Source: Chryseolinea sp. H1M3-3 (GTDB lineage Bacteria > Bacteroidota > Bacteroidia > Cytophagales > Cyclobacteriaceae). From it: a DNA stretch of 64,000 bases. The stretch covers positions 381,310-445,309 of the forward strand of contig NZ_JARKMY010000010.1 in the NCBI RefSeq assembly GCF_029360725.1. Direction: 5' to 3'. This document shows, one piece after another, positions 26,803 through 43,730 of this stretch (position 1 is its first letter; the number at the start of each line of letters is the position of its first letter). A program made the position numbers and the translations under genes. The notes under the pieces are model-generated. The model did not search any database and was not told the DNA's origin. It worked only from the letters and a program-made list of their open reading frames with translations.

Positions 26803-26817
26803 TTTTCGTAATAAGAA

Positions 26818-26852
26818 TTTAAAAAAAGGTGAAGGTTCAAATGAACCTTCAC
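26818..26852 (-). terminator. Hairpin with T-run between susD and the GH30 gene
   Basis: GGTGAAGGTTCA at 26827-26838 pairs perfectly with TGAACCTTCACC at 26841-26852. Read on the minus strand, a T-run follows (the A-run at 26818-26826). It may end or attenuate the susCD transcript and lower expression of the GH30 gene. Confidence 0.8.
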
Positions 26853-26890
26853 CACATCACCCTAACCCAAACGAAAGAGTGATTTTGCTT

Positions 26891-28585
26891 TTAATTATAT
26901 AATGGATTTTGCTCGATCGCGCCATTGGAGGCATTAATTTCCTCTACCGGAATAGGGAACCAATAGTGTCTGGCTGAAAATGTTTTTCCCGTCAACGCGA
27001 CTTTGGGAGCATAAGTAAAGGTACCATCCCCATTCTTTGTAACGGATACCCCACGTGCCGGTTGATTTTCAACGTCTTCGGCGATCATCCAACGCCTGAC
27101 ATCGAAATAGCGATGTTCCTCATAAGCTAATTCTACCCGGCGTTCATTACGAATGCGTTCACGCATTTCATCCGTCGTGAGTCCAGCCGGTAGGTCAGGC
27201 ATGCCCGCACGATTTCTTACCTGGTTTACTGCATCATGAACCGATTGATCGGGACCCGCTGCTTCATTTTGAGCTTCGGCATAGTTCAATAAGATCTCTG
27301 CATAACGAATGTAACGCCATGGGGAGACTCCCATATTATTCCAATCGTCAAGACTGATGTTTTCATTTAAAAATTTACGCAAATAATATCCTGTAGGAGA
27401 AGTATTCCATGGCTCATTACCGGCAGGACTGTCTTTTCCATCAGGAAGGAAAGTTTCTATCTGACGTCCACGGTAAGCAGCGCCATTGTAGAGTATAGAA
27501 GCATAAAATCTGGGATCTCTTCCGGTATATGGATCCTGAGGATCATAACCCGATGCTCCATTATCGATAGCCATACCGTTAGACATTTCGTAGTCATCCA
27601 CAAGGTTCTGCATAGGACAATTTCCACCCCAGCCACCAAAGCCATTAGGAGCGTTCATTCTTTCCATCGCCATAGCACGGCTGGTGACAGAGTATTCGCG
27701 GAAAAAGATATCCTCTACGCCAGGTGCGGATAAGAAAAATTTGCGGTAATTCTCTGCAGGGTCAGCATCGAGGTTTTTTACCAGATCAAACTTGTTAAGA
27801 TCCATAATATCCTTTGCAGCATCGGCAGCTACCTGCCATTTGGCCGCATCATTCGCTCCTCCCGTATACAACGGACTGGCTGCATACAACAACAACCTTG
27901 ACTTTAATCCCATCGCTGCCGTACTTGTTGCCCGCCCACGTTCCCAGTCACTTCCTGGATCCTGGGGTAGCACTGATATGGCAGCTTCCAATTCTGATTT
28001 TATATAATCCACCGTCTCAACGATGGATTTGCGTTCATACAAATCAGAAAAATCATCAGTAAGCGTGGTAACGCGGTCTCCAATCAGCGGCACACCACCA
28101 AAACCTTTTAGCAAATCAAAATATCGGTATGCCCTGATGAAGCGCAATTCAGCTGTTAGAAGACTTCTCCGTTCGTCCGATATGGGTGTCGCACCAATAT
28201 TTTGAAGTGCAAGATTTACTTCGCGTATGCCGCGATAGCTTCGTGCCCATGTGGTGCTGGTCCAGCCAAAAAGCACGGGGCTTAATTGCCCGCGTTGTAC
28301 AAGGTAAGTCTGATCATCATTGCTGTACACTGCTTCATCTGTTATGGAGGCATACATAGCCCAGTGATATCCTCGCCCAAAGCCAATATTCCGTTCACCA
28401 TCGCTAGCCTCTTTATCAGCCATTCGAATGCCGGTATACAAATTAATAATATAAGCTTCCGTTAAGCCAGCATCTGTCCACAGCGCTTGGTCGGTTACAG
28501 TCGTGGGCTTCACCTCCAGGAAATCTTTGTCACAGGAAACGAGGCAGCACGCCATTGCTATTAAGACATATAAAGAATATTTCAT
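26891..28585 (-). CDS. SusD/RagB-family nutrient-binding lipoprotein
   Basis: A 564-residue outer-membrane lipoprotein. The signal MKYSLYVLIAMACCLVSC has its lipobox ending at Cys18. Helical TPR-like segments follow, for example LRFIRAYRYFDLLKGFGGVPLIGD. The RagB-like C-terminal region includes RYAEILLNYAEAQNEA and VNQVRNRAGMPDLP, then RIRNERRVELAYEEHRYFDVRRW, all typical of SusD. It forms a lid on the SusC channel and binds the glycan at the cell surface. The gene follows susC after only five bases and is surely co-transcribed. A terminator-like hairpin follows. Confidence 0.95.
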   Translation of the reverse strand: MKYSLYVLIAMACCLVSCDKDFLEVKPTTVTDQALWTDAGLTEAYIINLYTGIRMADKEASDGERNIGFGRGYHWAMYASITDEAVYSNDDQTYLVQRGQLSPVLFGWTSTTWARSYRGIREVNLALQNIGATPISDERRSLLTAELRFIRAYRYFDLLKGFGGVPLIGDRVTTLTDDFSDLYERKSIVETVDYIKSELEAAISVLPQDPGSDWERGRATSTAAMGLKSRLLLYAASPLYTGGANDAAKWQVAADAAKDIMDLNKFDLVKNLDADPAENYRKFFLSAPGVEDIFFREYSVTSRAMAMERMNAPNGFGGWGGNCPMQNLVDDYEMSNGMAIDNGASGYDPQDPYTGRDPRFYASILYNGAAYRGRQIETFLPDGKDSPAGNEPWNTSPTGYYLRKFLNENISLDDWNNMGVSPWRYIRYAEILLNYAEAQNEAAGPDQSVHDAVNQVRNRAGMPDLPAGLTTDEMRERIRNERRVELAYEEHRYFDVRRWMIAEDVENQPARGVSVTKNGDGTFTYAPKVALTGKTFSARHYWFPIPVEEINASNGAIEQNPLYN

Positions 28586-28590
28586 AACCT

Positions 28591-31500
28591 CTAGAATTTT
28601 AAGTTGACACCGATATTAAAAATCTGTTGCTGCGGATAGAATTGGGCATTCTCAGTCCGGCCTTCAGGATCAAAATCCTTTACCTTGCTGAAAGTTGCCA
28701 GGTTAAAAGCGTTCACATAAATACGCGCCCCGCTAATTCTGATTTTTTCCGCAACACCAACCGGCAGGTTGTAGCCTAGTTCCACATTCTTGATTCTAAG
28801 AAAGGAAGTATTGTATAACCAAAAGTCATTTCTGTTTAACCCGCCATTAATACTTGAAGACGTACGGGTATCCACTCTTGGATAGGTACCTTCGGTATTG
28901 TTCGGACTCCACCGGTTCTCTGCCCAGGAGTTAAAGTAATTTCCAACCGAACCTGCTTCTTGCAACACATACTGAACCACACGTGCCTGGCCTTGTAATA
29001 ATATACTCAGGTCAAAATTCTTGTATGCAAAGCCCGCGGTGAAACCGTAAACGATCTGTGGAACATTGCTTAAGTTCTCACGAACCCGGTCGTTCGCGTT
29101 AATCTGTCCATCTTTATTTACATCGTCAAAGATGAGATCACCCAATTGATTTCCAGGAAGGCTTGGATAAGCTGCCAGATCTTCTGCTGTCTTAAACACT
29201 CCGATAGCACGGTACAACAACTGTGAACCCAACGGGCTCCCTATCCTCTTTTGGTATTCAGGTATGCCGGCGGCGTCATCGAGGAAGATAGCTTCACTTT
29301 TATTATAAGTAAAGTTTCCAGCAAGGTTGATATCCAAATTACCCACTGTCTGATTATATCCTAACTGTACTTCGACGCCACTATTTTTTACTTCACCAAT
29401 GTTTTCCGCTGGTATAATAGGAGGTTTTCCAAACTCGTTCACGATCCCGGAGACATAGGGAATTGAACCCGTTCTGGGTATCAGCAGATCGGTTCTTCGT
29501 TCATTGAAATAATCCAACTCCATCGTGAATCTTTTCAGGAAGCCAAACTCAAGACCGATGTCAAGTTTTTTAGCGGTCTCCCATGTAATATCAGGATTGG
29601 CCAATTGAAATACACCGAAGGTAGGAACAGGTGTTCCGTCAATCACATACGCTCCATTCCTTAACGTAAAGGAGTTGAGATATTGAAAAGCATTGATGCG
29701 ATCGTTACCTAGTAATCCATAGGATGCCCGAAGTTTTAAATTGTTGACGGCAGCGACATCAAACCATGACTCCTCCGATATCCGCCATCCAACGGAGGCG
29801 CTGGGGAAAAATCCATACTCTTTTCCAATAGGAAATATGGAAGATCCATCGTAGCGAAATTGAACTTCCACGAGGTACCTCTGACCATAATCATAAGACA
29901 GCCTACCAAAATAATTTCGTCTTGTAAAATGCTTACTGTTTCCACTGTTGGAACTCTCTTCAGGCGCAGAGCCTCCCAGATCAATTTCCGGAATCTGATC
30001 AGACAAGAAACCTCTTCGGAACGTTTCAAAGTAACGTCCTTTTATTTCATTCTGCTCATAGGCTATAAATGCTTTGAAAAAGCTTTGTCCGATTGTTTTT
30101 TCATAATTCAGACTAACATTGATGGATCTCAGTGTACTGGTAGTATCACGTTGTGTAAGTTCAGGTGTAACCGGGCCATATTTGCGCGCCTCGTATGTGG
30201 TTGGCGTTGTGCTGGTGTTCGGCACATAAGCGGTCCATGGTTTACGGAATAACTTTCTGCTTCCAAAACTTAAGTCTTGCGCAACGAAGCCCCTAGCGGA
30301 TAATCCTTCCAAAAATGGAAGCTTGTACTCAAAATTTATCAGGCTATTTAAAACGGTTAAAGGTTGTTCGTCAAAACCTGTCTTGTCAGTAGCAATGAGG
30401 ATGGGCGTGTTTCCGCCTTCAAGGCCTGGAGACGGCAAGTTGCCAGGATAATAAACCGGGAGGGTGGGATAGGTACGGTATGTTGCACGGAAAATATTTC
30501 CAGCTCCTTCTGTGGGTAATATTTTTTTCTCGTCGCGCCCCGCGAGATCAACCCCAATTTTAAAATTCTCCGATACTTTTATATCCAGATTGATTCTTAG
30601 ATTCCATTGTTCGAAATCAAGATTCGTGTTCTTATAAATCCCTTCCTGATGTCTTCTTCCGAGGGAAACAAAATAATTTACATTTTCACCGCCACCATTG
30701 AGTGACAAATTCTGCTGACTCTGTAATGAAACGGGTCTCATAACTGCATCAACCCAATTTGTATTGGGATAATCAACGGGATCAGATCCATCCGCAAACT
30801 TTTGAATATCTCCGGCAGAATAAATCTGATTAAGTCCTCCCGCAGGATTATTATAATATTGAATCTCATTCAGCATCTGCGCATAGGTAGATGAGTTCGC
30901 CATCTCCGGCAAGCGCGTCGGCCTCACAAAACCCTGATTGTTGGTAAAGGTAAATACTGGCTTACCTTTGGTGCCCCGCTTCGTGGTTATCAGGATTACA
31001 CCATTTGCTGCTTGTGCTCCATAAATAGCAGCCGACGCATCCTTTAATACGGAGACACTTTCAATATCATTGGGATCCAAACGTTCCAACCCGCCAATGC
31101 GATTAGCCACACCATCAATGACAACCAGCGGAGAATTATTTCCCACGGTACTTTGACCTCGAATCAACAATCTCGAATTGTCAAAACCCGGCTCTCCCGA
31201 AGCAGTGCTAGCCACCACACCGGAAACTCTTCCGGCAAAAGAATTAGAAAGATTTGGTTGTGGGCTTTTAACAAGTTCTTTGCCTTTTACTGAAGTGATG
31301 GCACTTGTCAGGGATTCTCTTTTCGTTTCTCCATATCCTACCACGACAATCTCCGAGAGTGTTTCAATGTCTGCAGCAAGTTTGATTTCAAAAAGAGATT
31401 GAGAACCCACCGTTACTTCCTGGGATTTATAACCGATAAAAGAAAAAACGAGAACGGCATTCTGATCAGGAACATTCAAGGCAAATGCCCCTTCAGCATC

Positions 31501-31695
31501 TGTTGTGGTTCCAACAGAAGTGCCTTTTACAATGACGTTAACGCCGGGTAGTGGTGTGCCACTTTCTTCCTCGAGTACCTTACCCTCAACTTTACTTCCC
31601 GTTTGTGCAAAGAGGAAGCTACAACAGAACTGCAAAACAATTACTATGAGCATAGTCGTGTTTCGCCTAATTTTCCTTGGTAGATGATTTATCAT
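28591..31695 (-). CDS. SusC/RagA-family TonB-linked outer-membrane transporter
   Basis: A 1034-residue protein. An N-terminal signal peptide (cleavage near FLFAQ) leads into a carboxypeptidase-regulatory-like domain (VEGKVLEEESGTPLPGVNVIVKG, about 36-120). The TonB box and plug domain follow (VVVGYGETKRESLTSAI, then DPNDIESVSVLKDASAAIYGAQAANGVILITTKRG). The rest is the 22-strand barrel and ends in aromatic FNIGVNLKF. It imports oligosaccharides across the outer membrane with energy from TonB/ExbBD, in complex with the SusD partner encoded next. The hybrid two-component system upstream probably controls it. Confidence 0.95.
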   Translation of the reverse strand: MINHLPRKIRRNTTMLIVIVLQFCCSFLFAQTGSKVEGKVLEEESGTPLPGVNVIVKGTSVGTTTDAEGAFALNVPDQNAVLVFSFIGYKSQEVTVGSQSLFEIKLAADIETLSEIVVVGYGETKRESLTSAITSVKGKELVKSPQPNLSNSFAGRVSGVVASTASGEPGFDNSRLLIRGQSTVGNNSPLVVIDGVANRIGGLERLDPNDIESVSVLKDASAAIYGAQAANGVILITTKRGTKGKPVFTFTNNQGFVRPTRLPEMANSSTYAQMLNEIQYYNNPAGGLNQIYSAGDIQKFADGSDPVDYPNTNWVDAVMRPVSLQSQQNLSLNGGGENVNYFVSLGRRHQEGIYKNTNLDFEQWNLRINLDIKVSENFKIGVDLAGRDEKKILPTEGAGNIFRATYRTYPTLPVYYPGNLPSPGLEGGNTPILIATDKTGFDEQPLTVLNSLINFEYKLPFLEGLSARGFVAQDLSFGSRKLFRKPWTAYVPNTSTTPTTYEARKYGPVTPELTQRDTTSTLRSINVSLNYEKTIGQSFFKAFIAYEQNEIKGRYFETFRRGFLSDQIPEIDLGGSAPEESSNSGNSKHFTRRNYFGRLSYDYGQRYLVEVQFRYDGSSIFPIGKEYGFFPSASVGWRISEESWFDVAAVNNLKLRASYGLLGNDRINAFQYLNSFTLRNGAYVIDGTPVPTFGVFQLANPDITWETAKKLDIGLEFGFLKRFTMELDYFNERRTDLLIPRTGSIPYVSGIVNEFGKPPIIPAENIGEVKNSGVEVQLGYNQTVGNLDINLAGNFTYNKSEAIFLDDAAGIPEYQKRIGSPLGSQLLYRAIGVFKTAEDLAAYPSLPGNQLGDLIFDDVNKDGQINANDRVRENLSNVPQIVYGFTAGFAYKNFDLSILLQGQARVVQYVLQEAGSVGNYFNSWAENRWSPNNTEGTYPRVDTRTSSSINGGLNRNDFWLYNTSFLRIKNVELGYNLPVGVAEKIRISGARIYVNAFNLATFSKVKDFDPEGRTENAQFYPQQQIFNIGVNLKF

Positions 31696-31854
31696 ATTTA
31701 TTAAGCTTTAGTGTAGACGGTCGAAATGGCGTGATGCATCTGCCCTGGCGTAAAAAAATGCGCATCAAACGTTGGCAAAGGTTATTTATAACGATTGCTG
31801 TGAAGGGGGTCTAACTAATAAAAAAGGGGGGTGGAATGAGCTTTTCTAAGAAAA

Positions 31855-34800
31855 TCAGCTATTCAGGTCATGCTTCACGGGAGGTTCCGTCCTCTGCGAC
31901 GCTTCCGTTTGCTTAATAAAATCTGAAGGGGAATATCCAAACTCCTTCGTAAAACACTGTCGAAAATACTTGAGGTCCGAGAATCCAACCATGTAAACGA
32001 CTTCGAAAACTTTGTACTTTTTGGTTTTGAGTAATGTAGCGGCCTCCTTCATCCGTAAGGATCTTATGTACTCGCCTGGTGAAAGACCTGTCAGCATCTT
32101 TACTTTTTTATAAACCAGCGATCGGCTCATGTTTAAAACGTCGCAGAGTTCGTTGATATTAAAATCAGGCTTATCGATGTTTGCCCTTAACATTTCATAA
32201 ATAGATTGGAGAAATTTTTCATCCAGAGAGTTTATGTTCGAGTTTCCCTCCGTAGGGGAATCAGGTGTAAAAAGGTTCCGGTAAAACCGCATCAGATTTT
32301 CCCGCGATTGTAAAAGATTGTTGACTGTCAGTCCAAGTATATCAGGACTGAAGGGTTTTGTAATGTAGGCATCCGCGCCTGTTCCAATACCTTCCTTATG
32401 ATGGGTTAAACTTGTTTTGGCAGTCAGCAAAATAACCGGAATGTGACTCGTCCGGATATTATTCTTTATTGATTTACAAAAGTCTATGCCATCCATTTCA
32501 GGCATCATGATATCGCTGATGATTAGATCGGGATGGTTTTGAGTAGCGACTTCCAGTCCTTCTTTGCCATTTGTCGATTCGAATATCCTATAATGCTTCT
32601 CAAAATATTCTTTCAGGAAAGACCGGATTTCATCATCATCCTCAATGATCAATAAACTTTTAAAACCCTTTTTGTTAGCGGAATATTCCTCCGCTTCCTG
32701 AAGCAGCATATTTTCTTTGATCGTCGTCGACTTAATATCCGACAGCCCATTATCTGTGGCTGTCTCCACGATCATTTCATCCGCTTTCAAATGGTCTTTG
32801 CCCAGCGGGATTTTAATACTGAAAACGGACCCGTTTCCTTCCGCACTATCGACAAATATTTCGCCTTTATGCAAGTGAACAAGTTTCTTTGCCAGCGACA
32901 ATCCTATGCCAGAGTTCATCGTCCCGGAACTATCGCCCTTGTAAAACCAATCAAAAATATTTCCAAGGTGTTTTTTTGGAATACCGATGCCATTGTCCCT
33001 GATCTTAATAATAGCCCTACCGTTAGGATATCGGTCTGTTATTTGCCTGCCCACATGAATACTAATTTCATTTCCTTTTCCAATGTATTTAAAGGAATTA
33101 GAGAGAATGTTGTTGAGCACCATTTCCAGTTTTTCCTTATCGAACCAAAGGGTGATTACTGGCTGTTCGGCATGAAAATAAAACTTGATATTCTTGTGAT
33201 TAGCCAGTTCTTTAAAAGTAATGTACACTTCTTCAACAAACGCAACGATGTTATCTTCCTTTACCTTGAGCAAAATATTACCGCTTTCAATTTTTCGATA
33301 ATCAAGAAGCTTGTTGATAAGATTTAAAAGCTTATGTGCATTTCGGTACACCAGCTTGAGTTTTCTTCCTTCTGACGTAAGGCCTCCATCCTTTGCCAGC
33401 ATTTCTTCAAGTGGGCCAATCATCAACGTGAGCGGGGTTTTAAACTCATGCGAGATCTCCGTAAAAAAAGTCAGTTTTTGCTGCACCAATTGTCGTTCAT
33501 GCTTGCGCTGGCTTTTTTCAATTTTTAATCTTCTTCTGAGATTCAATTGCTTTTTTCGAAATGAAAATATAATAAAAGCAATTCCCCCAAATGTTAATAT
33601 GTAAAGCGTATAGGCAATGGGAGTCTTCCAAAAAGGGGGTGTTATTTTTACGGAGACGCTGGCATACTCCGTGTTCCATACATTTTCAACGTTAGATGCT
33701 TTGACTTTAAACACATATTCACCGGGTTGTAAATATCGATAAGTAGCTGTTCGCTGATTACCCACAAAATTCCAATCTTCATCAAAACCCTCTAGTTTAT
33801 AAGCGTAAATATTTTTCTCAGGATAACTATAGTTCACTCCTACAAATTCAAAAGTCAAGACGTTCTGGTCATCGCTTAAGTTAATGTGATCTGTGCGACT
33901 AATCACTTGCGTCAATACCGGCGGTCCATCGGTGCTATCATTTACCTTGATCGGCTTGTTGAACAAGGAAAGTCCTGTAAGCATAATCTCTGGTTTTTTC
34001 AGATTCTCGATAATCTGATCAGGGTAAAAAATATTGAGACCTAACGTCCCACCCATACACATATATCCACCCAGTTCATTATACAAAGCTGAGCCTGGAT
34101 TAAACTGCCCTTCCTGCAAACCATCAAAAACATCAAAGTTCAAAAACTTATTTTTCCCCACATCATACTTGGAGATGCCGGTATTGGTACTAGCCCAAAC
34201 GTTTTGGTTGTTGTCAATAAGAATAGCGTTGATCGTATTATTGGCCAAGCCGTCTTTATCGGTGTACCGTTTGAATTGATCTTTTGCGGGATCAAAAGAA
34301 CAAAGTCCACCACCTCTTGTTCCTATCCAAATACTTCCCTTCCGGTCTGCTTTAATGGCGAATACAACATCGCTCTTTAATTGTTCGGCAGCCGTTGGTC
34401 CATTAAAATGTCTCTTGAATTTTTTAGTGGACGGCGAATAAGAATAAACACCATCACCATAACAGCCGATCCAAATATTTCCCTGATTATCTTCAGTAAT
34501 GGAACGCACATCCCCATTCAGCAATGCATCATTAAAATGCTCCGGATTCGAATAGACTTTTTCTTCCTCATCCAACAAACATAGACCGCCTCTGTTAGTG
34601 CCGATCCAGATGTTATGTTTTGAGTCTTCAAAAATTACCCTGACATCATTCCCGCCTGCCTTCGTTTTACTGTTTTTATAGTGGTAGTTAATAAAGGAGT
34701 CCTTAGCGCGATCATACAAAAATAGTCCTTGTGAATAAGAACCAAACCAAAGTCTTCCTTCTTCATCACGAAGGGCAGATATAATAGCATTGTCTGTTAA

Positions 34801-36048
34801 GCTTGCACTGGTTTCCGAAGTATAATGACGGATGGTATTGCCGTACAGGTCTGACTTGTAAATTCCATTGCCATCGGTTCCCAGCCACAAATTACCCTCA
34901 TGATCATAACACATGCCGTAATAAGGGACATAACTTACCGCCGTGTTTTTATAAATTGGTTTTTGTACCCTTACAAAATTTTCTTTTACACTGCTGATAA
35001 AATAGATACCTTCTCCAAATGTGCCGATCCAAATATTTTTGTCCTTGTCTTCATAAATGAACTGAATGGTACGCTTTGAGATGTCATAGTCATTGAGGTG
35101 TTTAACACTGACAAAAATAAAATCATCCAGCGGCCTTGTGTTGAACTGCCTTAGATCCAACTGATACAATCCTTCGCCCTGTGAGCCGATCCAAAGATTA
35201 TCATTTGAATCTGTAAAAAGTGAAAAAACATTCACTGTTGATATGGGGGATTTTCTGTCTTTGAAGGTGAAGAACTTATTCTCCTGCCTTTTATAAACGA
35301 CAAGTCCCTGGCTGGTGCCGATCCATACATTTCCAAATTTATCTTCTGCAAAACAACGGACGTTTACCAACGGAAAGTTTAAACCGCCAGATAGGTCATT
35401 CATTTTCTTAACCACAGCACCCTGACTAACCTGAAAAACATTTACGCCTCCCTCCTGCGTTCCTACCCACAACAAACCAAATCTGTCCTCAAGCATGGCG
35501 ACCGTTTTTTCGCTGGTTAAACCAGGCAACGTTTCAGGCGTGTAGGGTATGAATGTTTTCTTTTCTTTATTGAAAGAAGCAAAGCCACTCCCATACCACG
35601 AAATCCATAAATTACCGGCGCTGCCTTCCGTAATGAAACTGACATCGTTGAAAGCATAATTCTCTTTATCCTTAAAATCGTGACGATATATTGAGAAAGT
35701 CTCTTGATAAGGATTGAATTTCAACAAACCCTTCCTTGACGATACCCAGAGCGTACCTTTCGAATCCTTAAAAATACTTTGAATGAAATTATCGGCAATG
35801 CTGGTTTTATCATCAGGATCGTACTGAAATACCTTAAATGAATAGCCATCGAAGCGGTTTAAGCCATCTTCAGTAGCAAACCACATCATCGATTGGTTGT
35901 CTTGGGTGATACTGTTGATTACGCCTTGCGAAAGGCCCTCTTTAATACTCCAATGCTTGGTAAGATTGCGAGGCTGGAATTGCGCGATCAGCCCGTGACT
36001 TAATAATAACAGGAACCCAACAATTACACTATACTTTAGTCTCGTCAT
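31855..36048 (-). CDS. Hybrid two-component system sensor/regulator (HTCS)
   Basis: A protein of about 1397 residues from the start at 36048 (MTRLKYSVIV), which gives a clear signal peptide ending near GLIAQ; the frame begins 21 bases earlier. The periplasmic part is made of repeated two-component propeller motifs (NIWIGTxGEG-like blocks, about 20-690), followed by a Y_Y_Y domain (YAYKLEGFDEDWNFVGNQR). One transmembrane segment lies near residue 820. The kinase has ISHEFKTPLTLM (His near 870) and DNGIGIPKKHLGNIFDWF. A receiver domain (LIISDIMMPEMDG, near 1190) and an AraC-type DNA-binding domain complete it. Such regulators sense an oligosaccharide and switch on the adjacent susCD genes. Confidence 0.95.
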   Translation of the reverse strand: MTRLKYSVIVGFLLLLSHGLIAQFQPRNLTKHWSIKEGLSQGVINSITQDNQSMMWFATEDGLNRFDGYSFKVFQYDPDDKTSIADNFIQSIFKDSKGTLWVSSRKGLLKFNPYQETFSIYRHDFKDKENYAFNDVSFITEGSAGNLWISWYGSGFASFNKEKKTFIPYTPETLPGLTSEKTVAMLEDRFGLLWVGTQEGGVNVFQVSQGAVVKKMNDLSGGLNFPLVNVRCFAEDKFGNVWIGTSQGLVVYKRQENKFFTFKDRKSPISTVNVFSLFTDSNDNLWIGSQGEGLYQLDLRQFNTRPLDDFIFVSVKHLNDYDISKRTIQFIYEDKDKNIWIGTFGEGIYFISSVKENFVRVQKPIYKNTAVSYVPYYGMCYDHEGNLWLGTDGNGIYKSDLYGNTIRHYTSETSASLTDNAIISALRDEEGRLWFGSYSQGLFLYDRAKDSFINYHYKNSKTKAGGNDVRVIFEDSKHNIWIGTNRGGLCLLDEEEKVYSNPEHFNDALLNGDVRSITEDNQGNIWIGCYGDGVYSYSPSTKKFKRHFNGPTAAEQLKSDVVFAIKADRKGSIWIGTRGGGLCSFDPAKDQFKRYTDKDGLANNTINAILIDNNQNVWASTNTGISKYDVGKNKFLNFDVFDGLQEGQFNPGSALYNELGGYMCMGGTLGLNIFYPDQIIENLKKPEIMLTGLSLFNKPIKVNDSTDGPPVLTQVISRTDHINLSDDQNVLTFEFVGVNYSYPEKNIYAYKLEGFDEDWNFVGNQRTATYRYLQPGEYVFKVKASNVENVWNTEYASVSVKITPPFWKTPIAYTLYILTFGGIAFIIFSFRKKQLNLRRRLKIEKSQRKHERQLVQQKLTFFTEISHEFKTPLTLMIGPLEEMLAKDGGLTSEGRKLKLVYRNAHKLLNLINKLLDYRKIESGNILLKVKEDNIVAFVEEVYITFKELANHKNIKFYFHAEQPVITLWFDKEKLEMVLNNILSNSFKYIGKGNEISIHVGRQITDRYPNGRAIIKIRDNGIGIPKKHLGNIFDWFYKGDSSGTMNSGIGLSLAKKLVHLHKGEIFVDSAEGNGSVFSIKIPLGKDHLKADEMIVETATDNGLSDIKSTTIKENMLLQEAEEYSANKKGFKSLLIIEDDDEIRSFLKEYFEKHYRIFESTNGKEGLEVATQNHPDLIISDIMMPEMDGIDFCKSIKNNIRTSHIPVILLTAKTSLTHHKEGIGTGADAYITKPFSPDILGLTVNNLLQSRENLMRFYRNLFTPDSPTEGNSNINSLDEKFLQSIYEMLRANIDKPDFNINELCDVLNMSRSLVYKKVKMLTGLSPGEYIRSLRMKEAATLLKTKKYKVFEVVYMVGFSDLKYFRQCFTKEFGYSPSDFIKQTEASQRTEPPVKHDLNS

Positions 36049-36246
36049 AGCTGATTGTCTTATAGCCATAGTTATCAGTTCCGTAAACTTAAGTTATAGC
36101 CGGGATTATGTTCAATAAACTTGGCCTTTCCTAGGGGGACATTTGAATATGGTTAGCGGGGCAAATGTATTCTTGCGATTTCAGGCAGAAAAAGCAATTG
36201 ATTTGGTCAAAAGTTAATGGCGCAAATGTTTGGATTCTTCTTTCTA

Positions 36247-36935: not shown

Positions 36936-38303
36936 TCACCCCGTGTGCAAGGATTCATCAAGATGTTCCCAGATTACTTCATATACATCCGTAGGAAGCA
37001 GTTCTTGCTTCTTAACCTCCTGATCGGTGATCAACACCGGATGGAAAGTAGACGGGGTATTGATATTTCCATGAGACCCTTTGATTAGCGTAGCATCTAA
37101 CGGAATAACATCCATGACATACCGGAGTGCTGCTTTTTTTCGTAATAACTTATAGGCTGCACGTAATTTTGAGGACATAAACATTTCAACGGGATCGTAG
37201 CCGGGCTTTTTATGGATATCCACGGTGCGGGCATAGTCAGGTGCTTTATTGTCGTCCTGCCAGAAGTAGTAGCAAAACCAGCTTCGCGCGTCAGCCATCA
37301 CTACAAGATCACCCGACCGCGCGTGGTCGATGTGATATTGATGTTGCTCCTTTCGGTCAAGCACCAATTCAACGCCGGGAATTTTTTCAAGGATACTTCT
37401 TACTTTTGAAATTGCGCTTCCATTATTTATATATACATGTGCAACCTGGTGATCGGCGACTGCAAATGCTGCAGACGCTCCAGGGTCCAGTAATTCAAGA
37501 CCTCGTTCTATTCGAATCTGCAGCAAGCCGTTTTCACGCAATACGCGATTGATATAGATGGGGCGGTCAACATTGGTAATTCCGTATTCCGATAAAAGAA
37601 TAATCCATGCTCCGGCCTTTGTATAGTGAGAAATCAGCTGCTCAATAACATTATCAATTTCTTTAAGCTCTTGAGATATGAGGCTAAAGTTCTGTCCGAA
37701 TTTCTGAAGACAATAATCAAGATGCGGAAGATAGATTAGCGTTAGCGTTGGATTATATTTTTGATCGGTAATCACAGAAGCATCAGCAATCCATTGGGTA
37801 GACTTGATATTTGCGCCAGGTCCCCAAAATTGAAATAGAGGGAACATGCCCAGTTCTTTTTGCAATTCATCACGCAGCATGGCGGGATGTGAATAACAAT
37901 CGGGCATCTTTCTTCCATCTGCGAGGTAATTGGGCCGCGGCGTTACTGAAAAATCAGCAGTCGAGTACATGTTGTACCACCAAAACATTTTTGAACACGT
38001 AAATGCAGGATTGATGCGCTTCCCTTTATCCCAGATTTTTTCACCGTATACCAGCTTGTTGGATTGCTTCCAGAATTTGATCTCACAATCTTCACGGTCA
38101 TACCAGCCATTGCCAACAATCCCATGTTCGCTGGGCCACTTTCCTGTCACATAAGTTGACTGCACCGATGTGGTCACAGCAGGCAACATCGGCAAGATCG
38201 TATGGACGAATTTATTTTGTGTATACTTTTTTAAAAAAGGTGTATGCTCACCGATCAACCCGCTGGACAATCCTACAATATCAATTACAACCGTCTTCTG
38301 CAT
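36936..38303 (-). CDS. eboF: EboF: alkaline phosphatase-superfamily protein of the ebo operon
   Basis: A 455-residue protein of the nucleotide pyrophosphatase/phosphodiesterase type. The start at 38303 (MQKTVVIDIVGLSSGLIGEH) puts the first metal-binding Asp in place; the longer frame from 38354 adds a poor N-terminus. The nucleophile region is LPAVTTSVQSTYVTGKWPSEHGIVGNGWYD, with Thr as the probable nucleophile near residue 45 (only key residues quoted). Further metal-ligand regions include LPHLDYCLQKFG, LLSEYGITNV and GSHGNIN. There is no signal peptide, so it is probably cytoplasmic. It is the last gene of a complete ebo set. The family is metal-dependent and cleaves phosphodiester or phosphate bonds; its substrate in the ebo pathway is unknown. 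Confidence 0.88.
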   Translation of the reverse strand: MQKTVVIDIVGLSSGLIGEHTPFLKKYTQNKFVHTILPMLPAVTTSVQSTYVTGKWPSEHGIVGNGWYDREDCEIKFWKQSNKLVYGEKIWDKGKRINPAFTCSKMFWWYNMYSTADFSVTPRPNYLADGRKMPDCYSHPAMLRDELQKELGMFPLFQFWGPGANIKSTQWIADASVITDQKYNPTLTLIYLPHLDYCLQKFGQNFSLISQELKEIDNVIEQLISHYTKAGAWIILLSEYGITNVDRPIYINRVLRENGLLQIRIERGLELLDPGASAAFAVADHQVAHVYINNGSAISKVRSILEKIPGVELVLDRKEQHQYHIDHARSGDLVVMADARSWFCYYFWQDDNKAPDYARTVDIHKKPGYDPVEMFMSSKLRAAYKLLRKKAALRYVMDVIPLDATLIKGSHGNINTPSTFHPVLITDQEVKKQELLPTDVYEVIWEHLDESLHTG

Positions 38304-38398
38304 GTTTTTTTTAGAAAGCCTACCAACTATCCATACTGGTAACCTTATTACCAACTACCTCTTTACCCCCCACCGATTACCCTTTACCGATTACCTGC

Positions 38399-39619
38399 CT
38401 ACCTGCCCACCCCATTGCTCAAATAACTCATCACCCATTCCATTTCCCGAATAATAGATTCCGATAGTGGTAGCTTCAAAGCATCGGGTATCACCTCCCA
38501 GGTATATGTTTCCACTTCAAGGTGTTTCGTAAACGGTTGCTGCTTTTGAATAGACAAAACATCCCTGATATCGTCCTGGGTGGATTTTAGTAATCCATAA
38601 TCCTCAACGAACAGCGGAACATGAAAATGCGAACGCCATTCTTTTGTTGACGGGTTGCCTGCATCATTCAACGCTTCCGGGAGATCCGGATACTGCTTTA
38701 ACGTACCGTCTACCTGCCGCGCAACAACCTGATGCAGGTAGGTTGATTCATTAAACTGCCGGAATGCCTGAATTACCTTTTCTCGTTTCGTCTGGTCCTC
38801 TGGAATGAATGCCTTCAGTGCAGCACTGATTTGAATTTTTCCGACTTTTATTTTTTTCTCCTCGAGTTCCTTAACGATAGCAGCGTGGTTTTCATAACCC
38901 ACCGCGAAATGACAAACATCATAGCACAACTGAAGGTGATCTTTGATCGCTTGCGTGGCTTTTTCGGTTGTTAGCCCAAGCTGCTGCTGCAAATATACTG
39001 TGCCTAAAGGCAATAAATAACGATCATACCAATCAAAAAACTCGGGACCATTTCCCAGCAGGCCATCAGGTTCCGGTTCAATATCCAGGTGAAGCAGCTT
39101 GCCAGTATCATTTTTGATTCGGATAAGATGCTCAACAACCTGAAGAATATTTTTTGTTGTCTTTTCGAAGACGTCCTGTTCAGGTGCACCGCTGTGCCAA
39201 TATTTATAGGACAATGGTGATGTAGAAATTCCACCTTCCATTCCATCCGGCAATAACATTATCAGAATATTAAATAAGCGAATGGTATAGGCAACCCGTT
39301 CGGGCGTTGTCCAGTCGGGTGCATGCACCTGATCCTTTACTTTTGTTCTGTGAAATCCTCCGTAAGGAAATCCATTCATGGTAAAAACATAGCAATCTTC
39401 TTTTTTTAGCCAGTCTTTAAAATCATTAAGCGCACTTTTCTCCTGAAGCTGAAGACTCGCCTCGTGCGACAACCGTAGCCCTATGCCAAAAGACTGTGAA
39501 GCGCTGATTCGTTTTTTTATTCCGGGAATATTTTGTTTCAACGCGGCAAAATGATCGATCCAGTTTTCGCCTGCATGTATGTTTGTACAGTACGTCAGCA
39601 ATCCATGAGATGTACGCAT
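38399..39619 (-). CDS. eboE: EboE: metabolite traffic protein, TIM-barrel sugar-isomerase-like
   Basis: A 406-residue protein that opens MRTSHGLLTYCTNIHAGENW, typical of EboE. It has the TIM-barrel metal-site pattern of xylose isomerase-like proteins. Blocks include YVFTMNGFPYGGFH, the LLHLDIEPEPDGLLGN segment with paired acidic residues, and LCYDVCHFAVGYEN, each carrying possible metal ligands. It has no signal peptide. The true reaction of EboE is not known; the name records its link to the transport of a metabolite in cyanobacteria. It lies 95 bases before eboF and 26 bases after eboD. Confidence 0.9.
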   Translation of the reverse strand: MRTSHGLLTYCTNIHAGENWIDHFAALKQNIPGIKKRISASQSFGIGLRLSHEASLQLQEKSALNDFKDWLKKEDCYVFTMNGFPYGGFHRTKVKDQVHAPDWTTPERVAYTIRLFNILIMLLPDGMEGGISTSPLSYKYWHSGAPEQDVFEKTTKNILQVVEHLIRIKNDTGKLLHLDIEPEPDGLLGNGPEFFDWYDRYLLPLGTVYLQQQLGLTTEKATQAIKDHLQLCYDVCHFAVGYENHAAIVKELEEKKIKVGKIQISAALKAFIPEDQTKREKVIQAFRQFNESTYLHQVVARQVDGTLKQYPDLPEALNDAGNPSTKEWRSHFHVPLFVEDYGLLKSTQDDIRDVLSIQKQQPFTKHLEVETYTWEVIPDALKLPLSESIIREMEWVMSYLSNGVGR

Positions 39620-39645
39620 AATTCTATTTTGAAATGAGATTCAAT

Positions 39646-40800
39646 TTAAGGGTTACTTCTATCTTTCAACAACTGGCTGGCCTGCCTTATCAGGGCACCA
39701 TCCATTTCGTGAACTTCTTCGCCAATACCTATGCCATTAAGTAACGTGATAGTGAGTTTCCCCCCCAGGTGTTCACGGAACTCTTCCAGGCCCTGAAGCA
39801 GGGGGCTTTCGTTATCACGAACTTCTAACAACGGGTGCGTTGTACTCAAGCCGAGTGTTTTATTCAGATTCAGGATCACGTTCATGGCTTCTTCACTTAA
39901 CCTTCCGCTCAAATAAGAATAGACACTGTCGAGAGCGATACCGATAGCCACAGCCTCACCGTGACGGATATGGAAGTTTGTGAGCTGCTCGAGTTTATGA
40001 GCGCTCCAATGACCGAAATCTAACGGACGGGATGAGCCCATTTCGAAAGGATCCCCTCCACGAATATGTTGCATGTGAAGATCAGCACAGCGTTTAATTA
40101 GAGATTGCATTGCCGGCATATCCCGTTTGGCAAGTAATGCGGCGTTATCCAACAGCCATTGAAAAAATGCCGCATCTTTGATCAACGCCACTTTTATCGC
40201 CTCCGATATTCCCGACCGCCAGTCAACATCTTCAAGGGTAGTCAGAAAATGAAAGTCGTTGAATACGGCGACAGGTGGCGCAAATGTTCCCAGAAAATTT
40301 TTCTTGTTAAAATAGTTAATGCCATTCTTAACGCCGACACCCGAATCGTTTTGTGAAAGTACAGTGGTAGGGATGCGAATATGCCTGATGCCACGGTGTG
40401 ACACAGCGGCAGCATAGCCTGCAAGATCCAGTACAGAACCCCCGCCGATTGCGACGAGATATGAATGCCTGTCTATCTTATGGTTGTGGACTGCAGTAAC
40501 GATTTGACGAAACAAGTTTTCATCATTTTTTGCAGCTTCGCCACCAGGTACAATCATCATTTCTTCAATAAGTGAAATGGATGGAAATCCTTTGAAATAG
40601 GATTTAATGCCGTTGATCAGATCAGGATGATGGGCGACAACACCGTCATCTAAAACAAAAAAAATCTTGGGCGTTGCATCTGATTTTTTCGCCGTACTAA
40701 AAAAATTCCCGAGAAGCGGATTTTCCTTACTAAAAAGGTGGTTGGTGAAAAAAACTTTATAATCAAACCGAACACTGAACGACTGCTGCAAAAAATCCAT
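39646..40800 (-). CDS. eboD: EboD: 3-dehydroquinate synthase-like protein
   Basis: A 384-residue member of the sugar-phosphate cyclase superfamily, to which AroB belongs. The NAD-binding motif VAIGGGSVLDLAGY lies near residues 117-130, followed by HIRIPTTVLSQNDSGVGVKNGINYFNKKN. Zinc-site histidines are suggested in LDFGHWSAHKLEQL and HGEAVAIGIALD. It is distinct from the housekeeping AroB and would act on another cyclic or sugar phosphate. Its place in the ebo operon, between the UbiA-like and the TIM-barrel genes, is conserved. It lies 88 bases after eboC. The product of the reaction is not established. Confidence 0.9.
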   Translation of the reverse strand: MDFLQQSFSVRFDYKVFFTNHLFSKENPLLGNFFSTAKKSDATPKIFFVLDDGVVAHHPDLINGIKSYFKGFPSISLIEEMMIVPGGEAAKNDENLFRQIVTAVHNHKIDRHSYLVAIGGGSVLDLAGYAAAVSHRGIRHIRIPTTVLSQNDSGVGVKNGINYFNKKNFLGTFAPPVAVFNDFHFLTTLEDVDWRSGISEAIKVALIKDAAFFQWLLDNAALLAKRDMPAMQSLIKRCADLHMQHIRGGDPFEMGSSRPLDFGHWSAHKLEQLTNFHIRHGEAVAIGIALDSVYSYLSGRLSEEAMNVILNLNKTLGLSTTHPLLEVRDNESPLLQGLEEFREHLGGKLTITLLNGIGIGEEVHEMDGALIRQASQLLKDRSNP

Positions 40801-40888
40801 AAAAGGCCTACTGATAAATTTCGTGAATCGCTAAAATTAGCAGGAATAGGCCTGCTCTCCTCTTCTGTTTATATATATTTTTCGTCGA

Positions 40889-41770
40889 TCAGGTAACAGC
40901 AAATAGTTTGGCCAAAAGGATAGAGACCGGTAACAGCAACACAATAAAGAGTGCCAGGTATAAGGCACCAAACGCGGCTGCCCAGCTGGCATTCATCACG
41001 ATCAACGCCAGTACGCCCGCCCTGACTGCTCTACCTATGTTCCGCCCTATCGGCGCTTGGAATGCCTTAAGCAATGGAACATAAATGAGGATGGCAAGAA
41101 TGACAAGAAAAAACACGGCGTAAACACTATTTCCCTGCCCTATCGAGACATACAGTATTGAGACAATTACCACCAAATATAAAAACCCTGCAAATAAAAT
41201 TGTTTTGCTTTTTCCACCGTGGACTTCACCCCGGCTGATCATCGTAATTGCGGCAATATAAATAACCGGTATTACCGCAAAGTGACCAAAACGGAATAAC
41301 ACATCGGGCACAAGGCTTATCCCCAATAAAAGATTCAGCCCTCTGCAAAGGCCCATGTTTAAAGGCCCCAATATAAATTGATGTTTGCCCCATTTATCGT
41401 AGATGAGTGCCGCGAGTGCAATTACAAAGGCGATAATTCCGGACGGATAAGCGGCGCGCCCGAAAGCAGCTGCTATACCAATAATCAGCAATGACGCTCC
41501 CAGAAAAGTACCTTCTTTTTCTGTGATGAGTCCGCTGGGAATTGGACGTTCAGGTCGTTCGATACGATCAAGTGCCGCATCAAAAACATCGTTGAATACC
41601 ACACCTCCGCCGTATAGGCCTATCGTAGCCAATATGAGTAAAAGCAGGGCAGAAAGTTCAGGCATGCTACCGGAGTATCCCGCAATGGCGGCGCCAGCAA
41701 GAATATCCGAAATTGCTGTAACAATATTGGCAGGTCGCGTGAGCCTGAGAAACCCGATCAGCTTTTTCAC
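40889..41770 (-). CDS. eboC: EboC: UbiA-like membrane prenyltransferase
   Basis: A 293-residue protein with about eight hydrophobic segments. The first Asp-rich prenyltransferase motif is NDVFDAALDRIERPERPIPSG at residues 60-80; I see the N, D and D ligands for Mg-diphosphate (N60, D61, D64). A second acidic site may be DKWGKHQ near residue 135. UbiA-type enzymes move an isoprenoid group from a diphosphate to an acceptor in the inner membrane. In ebo clusters this may make a lipid carrier or prenylate the cargo, but the acceptor is unknown. It overlaps almost with eboB (one base apart), which indicates translational coupling. Confidence 0.9.
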   Translation of the reverse strand: MKKLIGFLRLTRPANIVTAISDILAGAAIAGYSGSMPELSALLLLILATIGLYGGGVVFNDVFDAALDRIERPERPIPSGLITEKEGTFLGASLLIIGIAAAFGRAAYPSGIIAFVIALAALIYDKWGKHQFILGPLNMGLCRGLNLLLGISLVPDVLFRFGHFAVIPVIYIAAITMISRGEVHGGKSKTILFAGFLYLVVIVSILYVSIGQGNSVYAVFFLVILAILIYVPLLKAFQAPIGRNIGRAVRAGVLALIVMNASWAAAFGALYLALFIVLLLPVSILLAKLFAVT

Positions 41771-41771
41771 T

Positions 41772-42758
41772 TTATCGAATGATCAACGAATCCTTATTGA
41801 TCCGAGGCTGCTGACCGCCACGCAGGATGGTATTTCCTTGAAATTTAAGACTTTGATCAACTTGCTGAGTCGTGGAGAAATCCGTTTCATGAAGTTGTCC
41901 GCTCTGGCCAAAGGCAGCGATGGCATTTTTGTACGTGACCAAGTGAATGATATCGTCCGATATCCCACTTTGCTTCATTAATGCTGCAGTTTTTGGAACA
42001 GCCAATGGATCGCTTATTCCCCAGTCGGCGGCGGAGTTGACCATGATGCGTTCAGCACCATATTTTTTAACAACTTCCACCATTCGTTCATTCCCCATTT
42101 TTGTAAAGGGATAGATGGTAAATGCAGCCCAGAATCCTCTTTCCAGAACTTCCTGGACCGTCTCTTCATTGTTATGATCAACGATCACCATTCCGGGATC
42201 AAGTCCACAGTCAATGGCAATATCCATACTGCGTTGTGTTCCCTGCTTCTTATCGCGATGGGGTGTATGAATCTGCACGGGAAGCGACGCCTCCTTTGCC
42301 AACAGCAGTTGAAGCCGGTAATATTTTTCTTCGGCTTTGGTCTGATCATCAAACCCGATCTCACCTACCCCGACCACCCCTTCTTTATAGATAAAAAGAG
42401 GGAGAATTTCCATGACCTGTTCAGCGAGTGCTTCGTTATTTGCTTCCCTTGAATTCAGACCAATCGTACAATAATGTTTAATACCGAATTGAGAGGATCT
42501 AAACCGTTCCCAGCCTACCAGACTGCTATAATAATCCTGGAAGGTTGCCACACCGGTACGCGGCTGACCCAACCAGAAAGCAGGCTCGATAATACCAACA
42601 ACTCCCGCATCTGCCATGGCCTGATAGTCGTCGGTGGTGCGCGAGGTCATGTGGATGTGAGGATCAAAGAATTTCATCCCTTTAATACTTTCAAGATACA
42701 AGGGTATCTCCACTCGAGGCTCGAGATCTTTTTCGGTGAGGTTATGGCTACAGCTCAT
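41772..42758 (-). CDS. eboB: EboB: TatD-family metal-dependent hydrolase
   Basis: A 328-residue amidohydrolase-fold protein. The first metal motif FFDPHIHMTSRT has His34 and His36. EIGFDD follows in the middle with the bridging Glu, QIHTPHRD carries another His pair, and the last aspartate is in NSAADWG. It has no signal peptide. TatD proteins hydrolyse phosphodiester or amide bonds, but EboB forms its own branch with unknown substrate. The gene lies directly before eboC (one base between them) and 48 bases after eboA. Confidence 0.9.
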   Translation of the reverse strand: MSCSHNLTEKDLEPRVEIPLYLESIKGMKFFDPHIHMTSRTTDDYQAMADAGVVGIIEPAFWLGQPRTGVATFQDYYSSLVGWERFRSSQFGIKHYCTIGLNSREANNEALAEQVMEILPLFIYKEGVVGVGEIGFDDQTKAEEKYYRLQLLLAKEASLPVQIHTPHRDKKQGTQRSMDIAIDCGLDPGMVIVDHNNEETVQEVLERGFWAAFTIYPFTKMGNERMVEVVKKYGAERIMVNSAADWGISDPLAVPKTAALMKQSGISDDIIHLVTYKNAIAAFGQSGQLHETDFSTTQQVDQSLKFQGNTILRGGQQPRINKDSLIIR

Positions 42759-42806
42759 AGTTTCTTGCGTTTCATTCTATCAGGCACTTACAAATATGGC
42801 CGATTC

Positions 42807-43730
42807 TCAGGAATTTCTTTCGAGTTTTTTAGCAAGGTCTGCCCAGCTCATACCACTTTTTGCGATATCGCGGAGGACCGGATTTTTTTCAACCAGTTCA
42901 CGTGCAGGGGCATAATTACTTTGCATACAGGCTAGCGCGGCAGCTTCACGTTCTGTCTCCTGTTCGGAAGATGCGATCCGTTGGATGTCCGGGAAATTCT
43001 TTTCATTAATAAATTTACCGACACACTGCCAAAGTAATGGATGAACGGTGCGATGTGCCGCCCATCTTTCGTGTGCATAATCGGATAAAATATTAGCCAG
43101 GTTCAGGTTGGCACGTTCATCCAGATTTATAATTTGGTGAATAGGTTTTTCCGTAAAAATGGCCTTCATTACTAACTGATTCCATGCTGGCTCATCAAGG
43201 TTTTCTGATGGATAAGGATTGTTACACATGATCGCCCTGAGGACGTCACCAATGTTGCTGCGAATACCCTCGGCACAGCGCGCGCGCCATCGCGCAGGAT
43301 AAGCCAAGACGGGTAACGCCGAATACAACGCAACCTGCTCATTCATCTCCGCGGTGGGAAACAAATCTTCTATGGTCTTAATGTATTTGTTTTCATCCTT
43401 TGTATCGAGATGCAAGAGAATCCAAACCCGGCACAAGCGATCGATTTCCCAATGCTGAATAATAAAGTGAGATCGGATTTGCTGAATTTCAGAGATTTCT
43501 GAGTCAGATAATACAACTGGCTGCTTTCCTGTTTTGCGCGTTACGGCAGCAAAGGCAACCATAAAGCTCTGAACATTCTCACTCTTGGAGATCAATGAAG
43601 TTTTCTCCGTAAGCCATTGCCAGGCATCTGTTGATACATGCCGTGAAATACAATCGGCTAATTTTGATTTGAGGGAGTTCGCGTTGTAAGTGAACACCGT
43701 GTTTTTTGTACGCTCTTCTGTTGTTGGCAT
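42807..43730 (-). CDS. eboA: EboA domain-containing protein
   Basis: A 307-residue helical protein that matches the EboA family by its conserved blocks: NEQVALYSALPVLAYPARW, AEGIRSNIGDVLRAIMCNNPYP, AWNQLVMKAIF, and LSDYAHERWAAHRTVHPLLWQ. EboA has no known catalytic motif and may be a structural or binding part of the system. It is the first gene of six on the minus strand. A TAGATTTG box that fits the Bacteroidota -7 element lies at 43735-43742, only four bases before the ATG, which would make the transcript nearly leaderless; this is weak evidence. Confidence 0.9.
   Translation of the reverse strand: MPTTEERTKNTVFTYNANSLKSKLADCISRHVSTDAWQWLTEKTSLISKSENVQSFMVAFAAVTRKTGKQPVVLSDSEISEIQQIRSHFIIQHWEIDRLCRVWILLHLDTKDENKYIKTIEDLFPTAEMNEQVALYSALPVLAYPARWRARCAEGIRSNIGDVLRAIMCNNPYPSENLDEPAWNQLVMKAIFTEKPIHQIINLDERANLNLANILSDYAHERWAAHRTVHPLLWQCVGKFINEKNFPDIQRIASSEQETEREAAALACMQSNYAPARELVEKNPVLRDIAKSGMSWADLAKKLERNS

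Follow-up and report, generated by a model that had tools for sequence, protein, structure and literature searches.

A complete, self-contained ebo operon in Chryseolinea sp. H1M3-3 that may direct synthesis of a membrane-anchored prenyl-cyclitol

The eboABCDEF locus

We analyzed a 64,000-nt stretch of DNA (the window) from the genome of Chryseolinea sp. H1M3-3 (6.88 Mb, 19 contigs), with relatives for comparison drawn from the same taxonomic order. Positions 36936 to 43730 hold six minus-strand open reading frames (ORFs) in the order eboA-eboB-eboC-eboD-eboE-eboF. The locus is a complete and unremarkable representative of the known ebo operon, with all six families present on one strand in ABCDEF order; a preliminary description of this DNA had made the same assignment, which NCBIfam and Pfam matches and the gene order of relatives bear out. 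EboA (42807–43730, 307 aa) matches the NCBIfam EboA domain NF035938 at 176.4 bits (cut-off 50), scores 262.5 bits against the stricter EboA family NF035937, under its cut-off of 320, and gave no match in a Pfam scan. The eboB ORF (41772–42758, 328 aa) encodes a TatD-like metal-dependent hydrolase (Pfam TatD_DNase PF01026, 55.6 bits), and eboC (40889–41770, 293 aa) a UbiA-type prenyltransferase (NF035940, 382.8 bits, cut-off 250; UbiA in Pfam). EboD (39646–40800, 384 aa) is a sugar phosphate cyclase by family (NCBIfam PRK06203, "3-dehydroquinate synthase," 568.7 bits, cut-off 333; DHQ_synthase in Pfam), and EboE (38399–39619, 406 aa) a xylose-isomerase-like TIM barrel (NF035939, 510.3 bits, cut-off 250). 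EboF (36936–38354, up to 472 aa) belongs to the Phosphodiest family PF01663 (204.1 bits, cut-off 23) and has an alkaline-phosphatase-like fold with an altered metal site. The preliminary description had set four of the six proteins in ebo families as its minimum, and profile searches leave its assignment standing: A, C and E are recognized by ebo-specific models, neither EboB nor EboF has an ebo-specific NCBIfam match, and B, D and F were assigned through their identity to the proteins of ordered relatives and the conserved order.

The gaps between the genes, from eboA to eboF, are 48, 1, 88, 26 and 44 nt, short enough to be compatible with co-transcription of all six. Scans of the DNA found 13 promoters against 18.1 in shuffled sequence and 10 terminators against 8.1, no excess over shuffles in either case. 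The first 27 residues of the eboB ORF are missing from the other 13 rows of a 14-row alignment, and Met-28, at 42677, may be a likelier start than the first codon of the ORF. For eboF, the candidate starts are TTG at 38354 and ATG at 38303.

Recurrence and co-retention in relatives

EboE is present in 66 of the 194 genomes of the order that were surveyed, including 7 of 16 in the family of Chryseolinea sp. H1M3-3, and 56 of the other 65 EboE loci were fetched. The expectation that the gene order would recur in related genomes held: within the fetched stretches, 31 of the 56 loci carry ABCDEF, 15 carry E alone, 4 carry DEF, 3 EF and 3 DE, and the EboB proteins of the relatives with ABCDEF order are 64 to 80% identical to that of the window. 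EboA was found in 65 of the 194 genomes, 64 of them with EboE, and the 63 genomes with EboC over its cut-off likewise have EboE without exception (Fisher p < 1e-47 for each, a value that ignores the kinship of the genomes).

Some fetched stretches end at contig ends (e.g. L072 and L088–L091), and some loci may look incomplete because of the assembly. We also considered whether the loci with EboE alone represent a separate system, which is not supported, as EboB was found outside the fetched stretch in all 25 genomes with partial loci (with in-frame stops in three). In one of these relatives (G029), EboB lies only about 18 kb from EboE, and in a single-contig genome (G004) EboE, EboC and an EboA/EboB pair are separated by hundreds of kilobases. 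Because the ebo genes are retained together in genomes where they are not clustered, they appear to form one unit even without an operon.

Active sites of the Ebo proteins

Residues are numbered as in the window proteins. In EboB, the residues that we take to be metal ligands (His34, His36, Glu133, His164, His195 and Asp245) are kept in all 51 aligned rows. EboC retains the first Asp-rich motif (Asn60, Asp61, Asp64 and Asp68, 49/49 rows) and lacks the second, of which a single Glu is left (Glu182, 48/49 rows); the EboC paralog L002 in the same genome has a typical acidic second motif, and the closest solved relative of EboC is DGGGP synthase.

In EboD, Asp261 is as in all three annotated sedoheptulose-7-phosphate cyclases and His344 as in two of the three, while His268 is as in 3-dehydroquinate synthase (DHQS) and His242 stands at the position of the DHQS lysine; the catalytic-type residues are conserved in 39 rows. 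The description of EboD as dehydroquinate-synthase-like agrees with its NCBIfam name, although the genome contains a second DHQ_synthase gene and EboD is therefore probably dispensable for the shikimate pathway.

The AlphaFold model of EboE, built from a 29-row alignment, is a TIM barrel with a predicted local distance difference test score (pLDDT) of 93.6. Its top three Foldseek matches are SCO6571, IolI and AsbF, with xylose isomerases and IolE further down, and template modeling (TM) scores by query length range from 0.35 to 0.54 over the 50 matches listed. Judged from the model, this fold is compatible with cyclitol-type chemistry, without fixing a reaction. A single-sequence model of EboA (pLDDT 41) was not used.

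EboF departs from its fold family at the metal site. Taking the canonical ligands to be those of a two-metal site with D, DxxxH and DH motifs, four ligand positions are occupied by Val27, Gln217, Glu256 and Tyr257, and the set of two-metal motifs is incomplete. Three of these changes are stable among full-length rows (Glu256 and Tyr257 46/46, Gln217 43/46), as are the retained residues Thr61 (45/46, with one gap), Asp213 (46/46) and His428 (46/46). At the four positions, D, H, D and H are retained by the four best-scoring EboF paralogs of the genome, all four aligned and taken from nine other matches listed. Compared with phosphonoacetate hydrolases, the changes D to E and H to Y appear in both alignments and H to Q in one, the alignments stopping short of Val27. 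EboF, called phosphatase-like in the preliminary description, keeps the fold of its family; a phosphatase-like function is doubtful because the four presumed ligands are replaced, and the protein is unlikely to be an ordinary two-metal phosphodiesterase.

EboD and Ino1 in ebo clusters

A plasmid collection was searched by tblastn, counting genes within 10 kb of EboE as near. EboE was found in 48 records, and inositol-3-phosphate synthase (Ino1) lies near it in 29 of these. At least 16 records contain EboD at 44% identity or more, and in 15 it is near EboE (60 of 115 matching records listed). No record has both EboD and Ino1 near EboE, and four have neither, with EboD counted among the matches listed; one of the four has its EboE match at the record end, and another has only B, E and F homologs. 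A further observation concerns Streptomyces sp. NBC_01244, also one of the four, where a lone EboE-like gene (L109:8965–10143) sits beside type II polyketide-type genes.

In five Streptomyces plasmids the gene order is Ino1, SCO3242-family prenyltransferase, isomerase, EboA, TatD, EboE and EboF-type. These clusters hold EboA, B, C, E and F homologs together, as in the window; unlike the window operon, they have Ino1 and a sugar-phosphate isomerase and lack EboD in the stretches read. The locus numbers of SCO3242 and of SCO3243, a myo-inositol phosphate synthase, are consecutive in S. coelicolor (excerpt of PMC3610822). By tblastn, Nonomuraea and Gemmatirosa also have Ino1 and the isomerase, with no match for EboA in the Gemmatirosa cluster, and in three of four haloarchaeal plasmid loci Ino1 accompanies TatD, isomerase, UbiA and EboF-type genes. 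The window EboB is 51% identical to its Streptomyces and 40% to its haloarchaeal counterpart, EboF 45% and 34%, and EboC 34% (over 147 residues) and 37%. The one Ino1 compared with solved structures, that of the Streptomyces plasmid L100, matches myo-inositol-1-phosphate synthases. From the gene content of these clusters, some bacteria and archaea seem to replace EboD by Ino1. No Ino1 was found in the 57 Bacteroidota loci, window included, and no Ino1 (PF07994) in the genome of Chryseolinea sp. H1M3-3.

A maximum-likelihood tree was built from 49 EboB proteins, 10 of them Ino1-type. These 10 occupy three separate positions (haloarchaea, Actinomycetota and Gemmatirosa) and are united in 0% of 200 bootstrap trees; five changes is an overcount, owing to L104 and L110, which have no Ino1 close by, and the tree comes with a long-branch warning. 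Gemmatirosa EboB, though Ino1-type, nests among EboD-type relatives and is 72% identical to Deinococcus EboB. It is possible, though we would not favor it, that Ino1-type and EboD-type clusters make different products, in which case the swap would be uninformative on EboD chemistry. The Ino1 clusters read do contain the extra sugar-phosphate isomerase, and EboC and EboA homologs are only 25 to 37% identical between the two cluster types; set against this are the EboB, EboE-type and EboF proteins common to both types and the place of Gemmatirosa EboB in the tree.

A proposed pathway and its alternatives

The six genes, their order and co-retention, the families of EboB to EboF and the kept and changed active-site residues are computed; from them we infer a pathway and a role. 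With moderate confidence, we propose that this complete, self-contained operon makes a membrane-anchored, probably inositol-like prenyl-cyclitol that aids the export of other molecules. EboD would close a sugar phosphate into a keto-cyclitol, which EboE, with its xylose-isomerase fold near inosose isomerase IolI and dehydratase AsbF, could isomerize or dehydrate. EboB, TatD-like and with its metal ligands intact, may trim or rearrange the cyclitol, and EboC would add an isoprenoid chain to give the membrane-anchored prenyl-cyclitol. EboF might work with a single metal or serve in binding or transfer, and EboA is perhaps a helical scaffold. The lipid would bring poorly membrane-permeant metabolites to the periplasm, after the published scytonemin work. 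An inositol-like cyclitol is probable, given that Actinomycetota, haloarchaea and a Gemmatimonadota plasmid have Ino1 together with a sugar-phosphate isomerase in clusters without EboD. More tentatively, EboD and Ino1 with its isomerase could be interchangeable modules, swapped more than once and supplying the same building block, so that bacteria and haloarchaea alike would make a prenylated inositol-type lipid, with EboF a metal-altered protein of the alkaline-phosphatase fold that has given up phosphodiester hydrolysis.

Several observations weigh against this proposal. We know of no ebo product that has been isolated. EboD, whose residue pattern is unlike that of DHQS, nonetheless scores over the cut-off of the NCBIfam DHQS equivalog model, and the residues that it shares with sedoheptulose-7-phosphate cyclases are no less compatible with a C7 than with a C6 cyclitol. 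The EboD/Ino1 swap is read from gene content, and 19 of the 29 Ino1 records, which share a single identity value against the Ino1 query, are probably near copies. The fourth haloarchaeal locus has no Ino1 within its stretch. Among 80 EboB loci (the best 80 of 586 confirmed), EboD at more than 40% identity lies near in 27 and Ino1 in none. Two Planctomycetota loci among these 80 (L147 and L172) have F, C and sugar-phosphate isomerase homologs on the opposite strand and neither EboD nor Ino1 in the stretch; they are perhaps a third ebo variant. The substrates assayed with EboC are aromatic only, not cyclitols (excerpt of PMC9235831), and the export role has been demonstrated in Nostoc only (excerpt of PMC6282210).

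The aromatic substrates suggest a second alternative, which we regard as unlikely: a diffusible prenylated aromatic product rather than a carrier lipid, with EboE and EboB aromatizing the keto-cyclitol by dehydration and EboC farnesylating the ring. In vitro, EboC homologs from three genera take quinolines, not phenols or catechols, and add a farnesyl group to 8-hydroxyquinoline-2-carboxylic acid (excerpts of PMC9235831); AsbF, an aromatizing dehydratase, ranks third in the EboE fold search. However, these enzyme assays used fed substrates, with membrane fractions or cells, and in Nostoc all ebo mutants tested stop at one cytoplasmic intermediate and not at different steps: in the deletion mutants, eboD not among them, the scytonemin monomer stays in the cytoplasm (excerpts of PMC6282210). 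Least probable is that the Ebo proteins make no product and form a membrane complex that moves metabolites, since, although the Nostoc export phenotype and the suggested EboCAB complex (excerpt of PMC6282210) and the NCBIfam label of EboA and EboE as metabolite traffic proteins would suit it, the intact EboB ligands and conserved EboD catalytic-type residues would be superfluous for pure transport and Pfam places none of EboB to EboF in a transporter family.

Neighborhood and cargo

The preliminary description had supposed an unknown cargo for the operon, and this we could not substantiate as an adjacent gene. Among ORFs of at least 90 aa in the 56 loci and the window, no conserved cargo gene lies beside ebo, and the widest-shared neighbor families reach at most eight genera; these (a short-chain dehydrogenase, a sensor kinase and a TonB-type receptor) look like common types. 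Downstream of ebo lie hybrid sensor, TonB-type receptor, SusD and GH30 genes, which together (25231–36069) are likely a polysaccharide-utilization locus, and upstream are SnoaL-like and AraC-type genes; no reason to join these flanking genes to ebo was found. Because no specific neighbor recurs in the 56 loci, ebo in this genome looks like a stand-alone, general module without a dedicated adjacent cargo gene.

The absence of a scytonemin-type context, also put forward in the preliminary description, was upheld genome-wide for ScyD/ScyE: a ScyE_fam search gave 10 matches, the best at 31.1 bits and none over the cut-off of 80, and no ScyD/ScyE-family protein was found among the scanned ebo neighbors, scyABC not having been searched in either case. 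Elsewhere, a gene annotated as ScyD/ScyE family lies directly upstream of Ino1 in three of the five annotated Streptomyces clusters (plasmids L100, L102 and L107; the model match was confirmed for L100 only), a hint that a secretion theme like that of scytonemin exists beyond the cyanobacteria.

A cassette of a PF12902 ferritin-like protein and a 590–660 aa protein without a Pfam match occurs near ebo in Aureibacter, Mycetohabitans, Gloeothece and one genome of the order surveyed here (L093:4168–7228, L099:3048–6066, L112:8861–12142 and L062:13574–16605; 35–48% identical). PF12902 also includes the violacein enzyme VioB, and an indole-type cargo is therefore possible for the cassette. PF12902 was rejected as a general ebo partner: of the 10 genomes among the 194 that have it, 5 also carry EboE (Fisher p 0.31), and no PF12902 protein is present in the genome of Chryseolinea sp. 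H1M3-3.

Relation to known ebo systems and implications

The operon and the prenylated-cyclitol idea are already in print (excerpts of PMC5133447, PMC6282210 and PMC9235831), and the prenylated, sugar-derived product named in the preliminary description is a hypothesis published in PMC5133447. The ebo operons of Bacteroidetes, Cyanobacteria and eustigmatophyte plastids (Yurchenko et al. 2016, PMC5133447) have the same six genes, families and ABCDEF order as the window, an order given in an excerpt of that paper as ancestral in Bacteroidetes and Cyanobacteria, and we found no structural difference between them. Its main text contains none of the terms "inositol," "catalytic residues," "metal-binding," "zinc," "active site" or "aspartate-rich," and the EboD/Ino1 swap, the EboF metal-site change and the loss of the second EboC motif were not found in the open-access literature searched. 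The Nostoc punctiforme scytonemin operon (PMC6282210) shares its Ebo families with the window; as described above, the window genome differs in having no ScyD/ScyE protein over the cut-off (scyABC not searched). The EDB cluster of Pseudomonas fluorescens NZI7 contains a full ebo cluster according to an excerpt of PMC6282210; EDB, as distinct from the window ebo, is linked to indole products that repel nematodes (excerpt of the review PMC9655573). The Ubi-297 prenyltransferases are reported to belong to the ebo cluster in Maribacter, Zobellia and Algoriphagus (excerpt of PMC9235831). An ebo operon is also reported in a Rickettsiales endosymbiont (excerpt of PMC6092422).

The operon was given its name in 2016; its product has stayed elusive since then, despite the presence of the genes in several phyla and algal plastids. 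The replacement of EboD by Ino1 would narrow "some cyclitol" towards an inositol type and makes the cyclitol step testable, while the altered metal site of EboF warns against giving this protein a phosphatase step. With no adjacent cargo gene, the Bacteroidota copy is suited to the study of the core function free of scytonemin and indole pathways. If EboD and Ino1 with its isomerase are indeed interchangeable modules, the ebo product would be a new class of cyclitol lipid, an export carrier.

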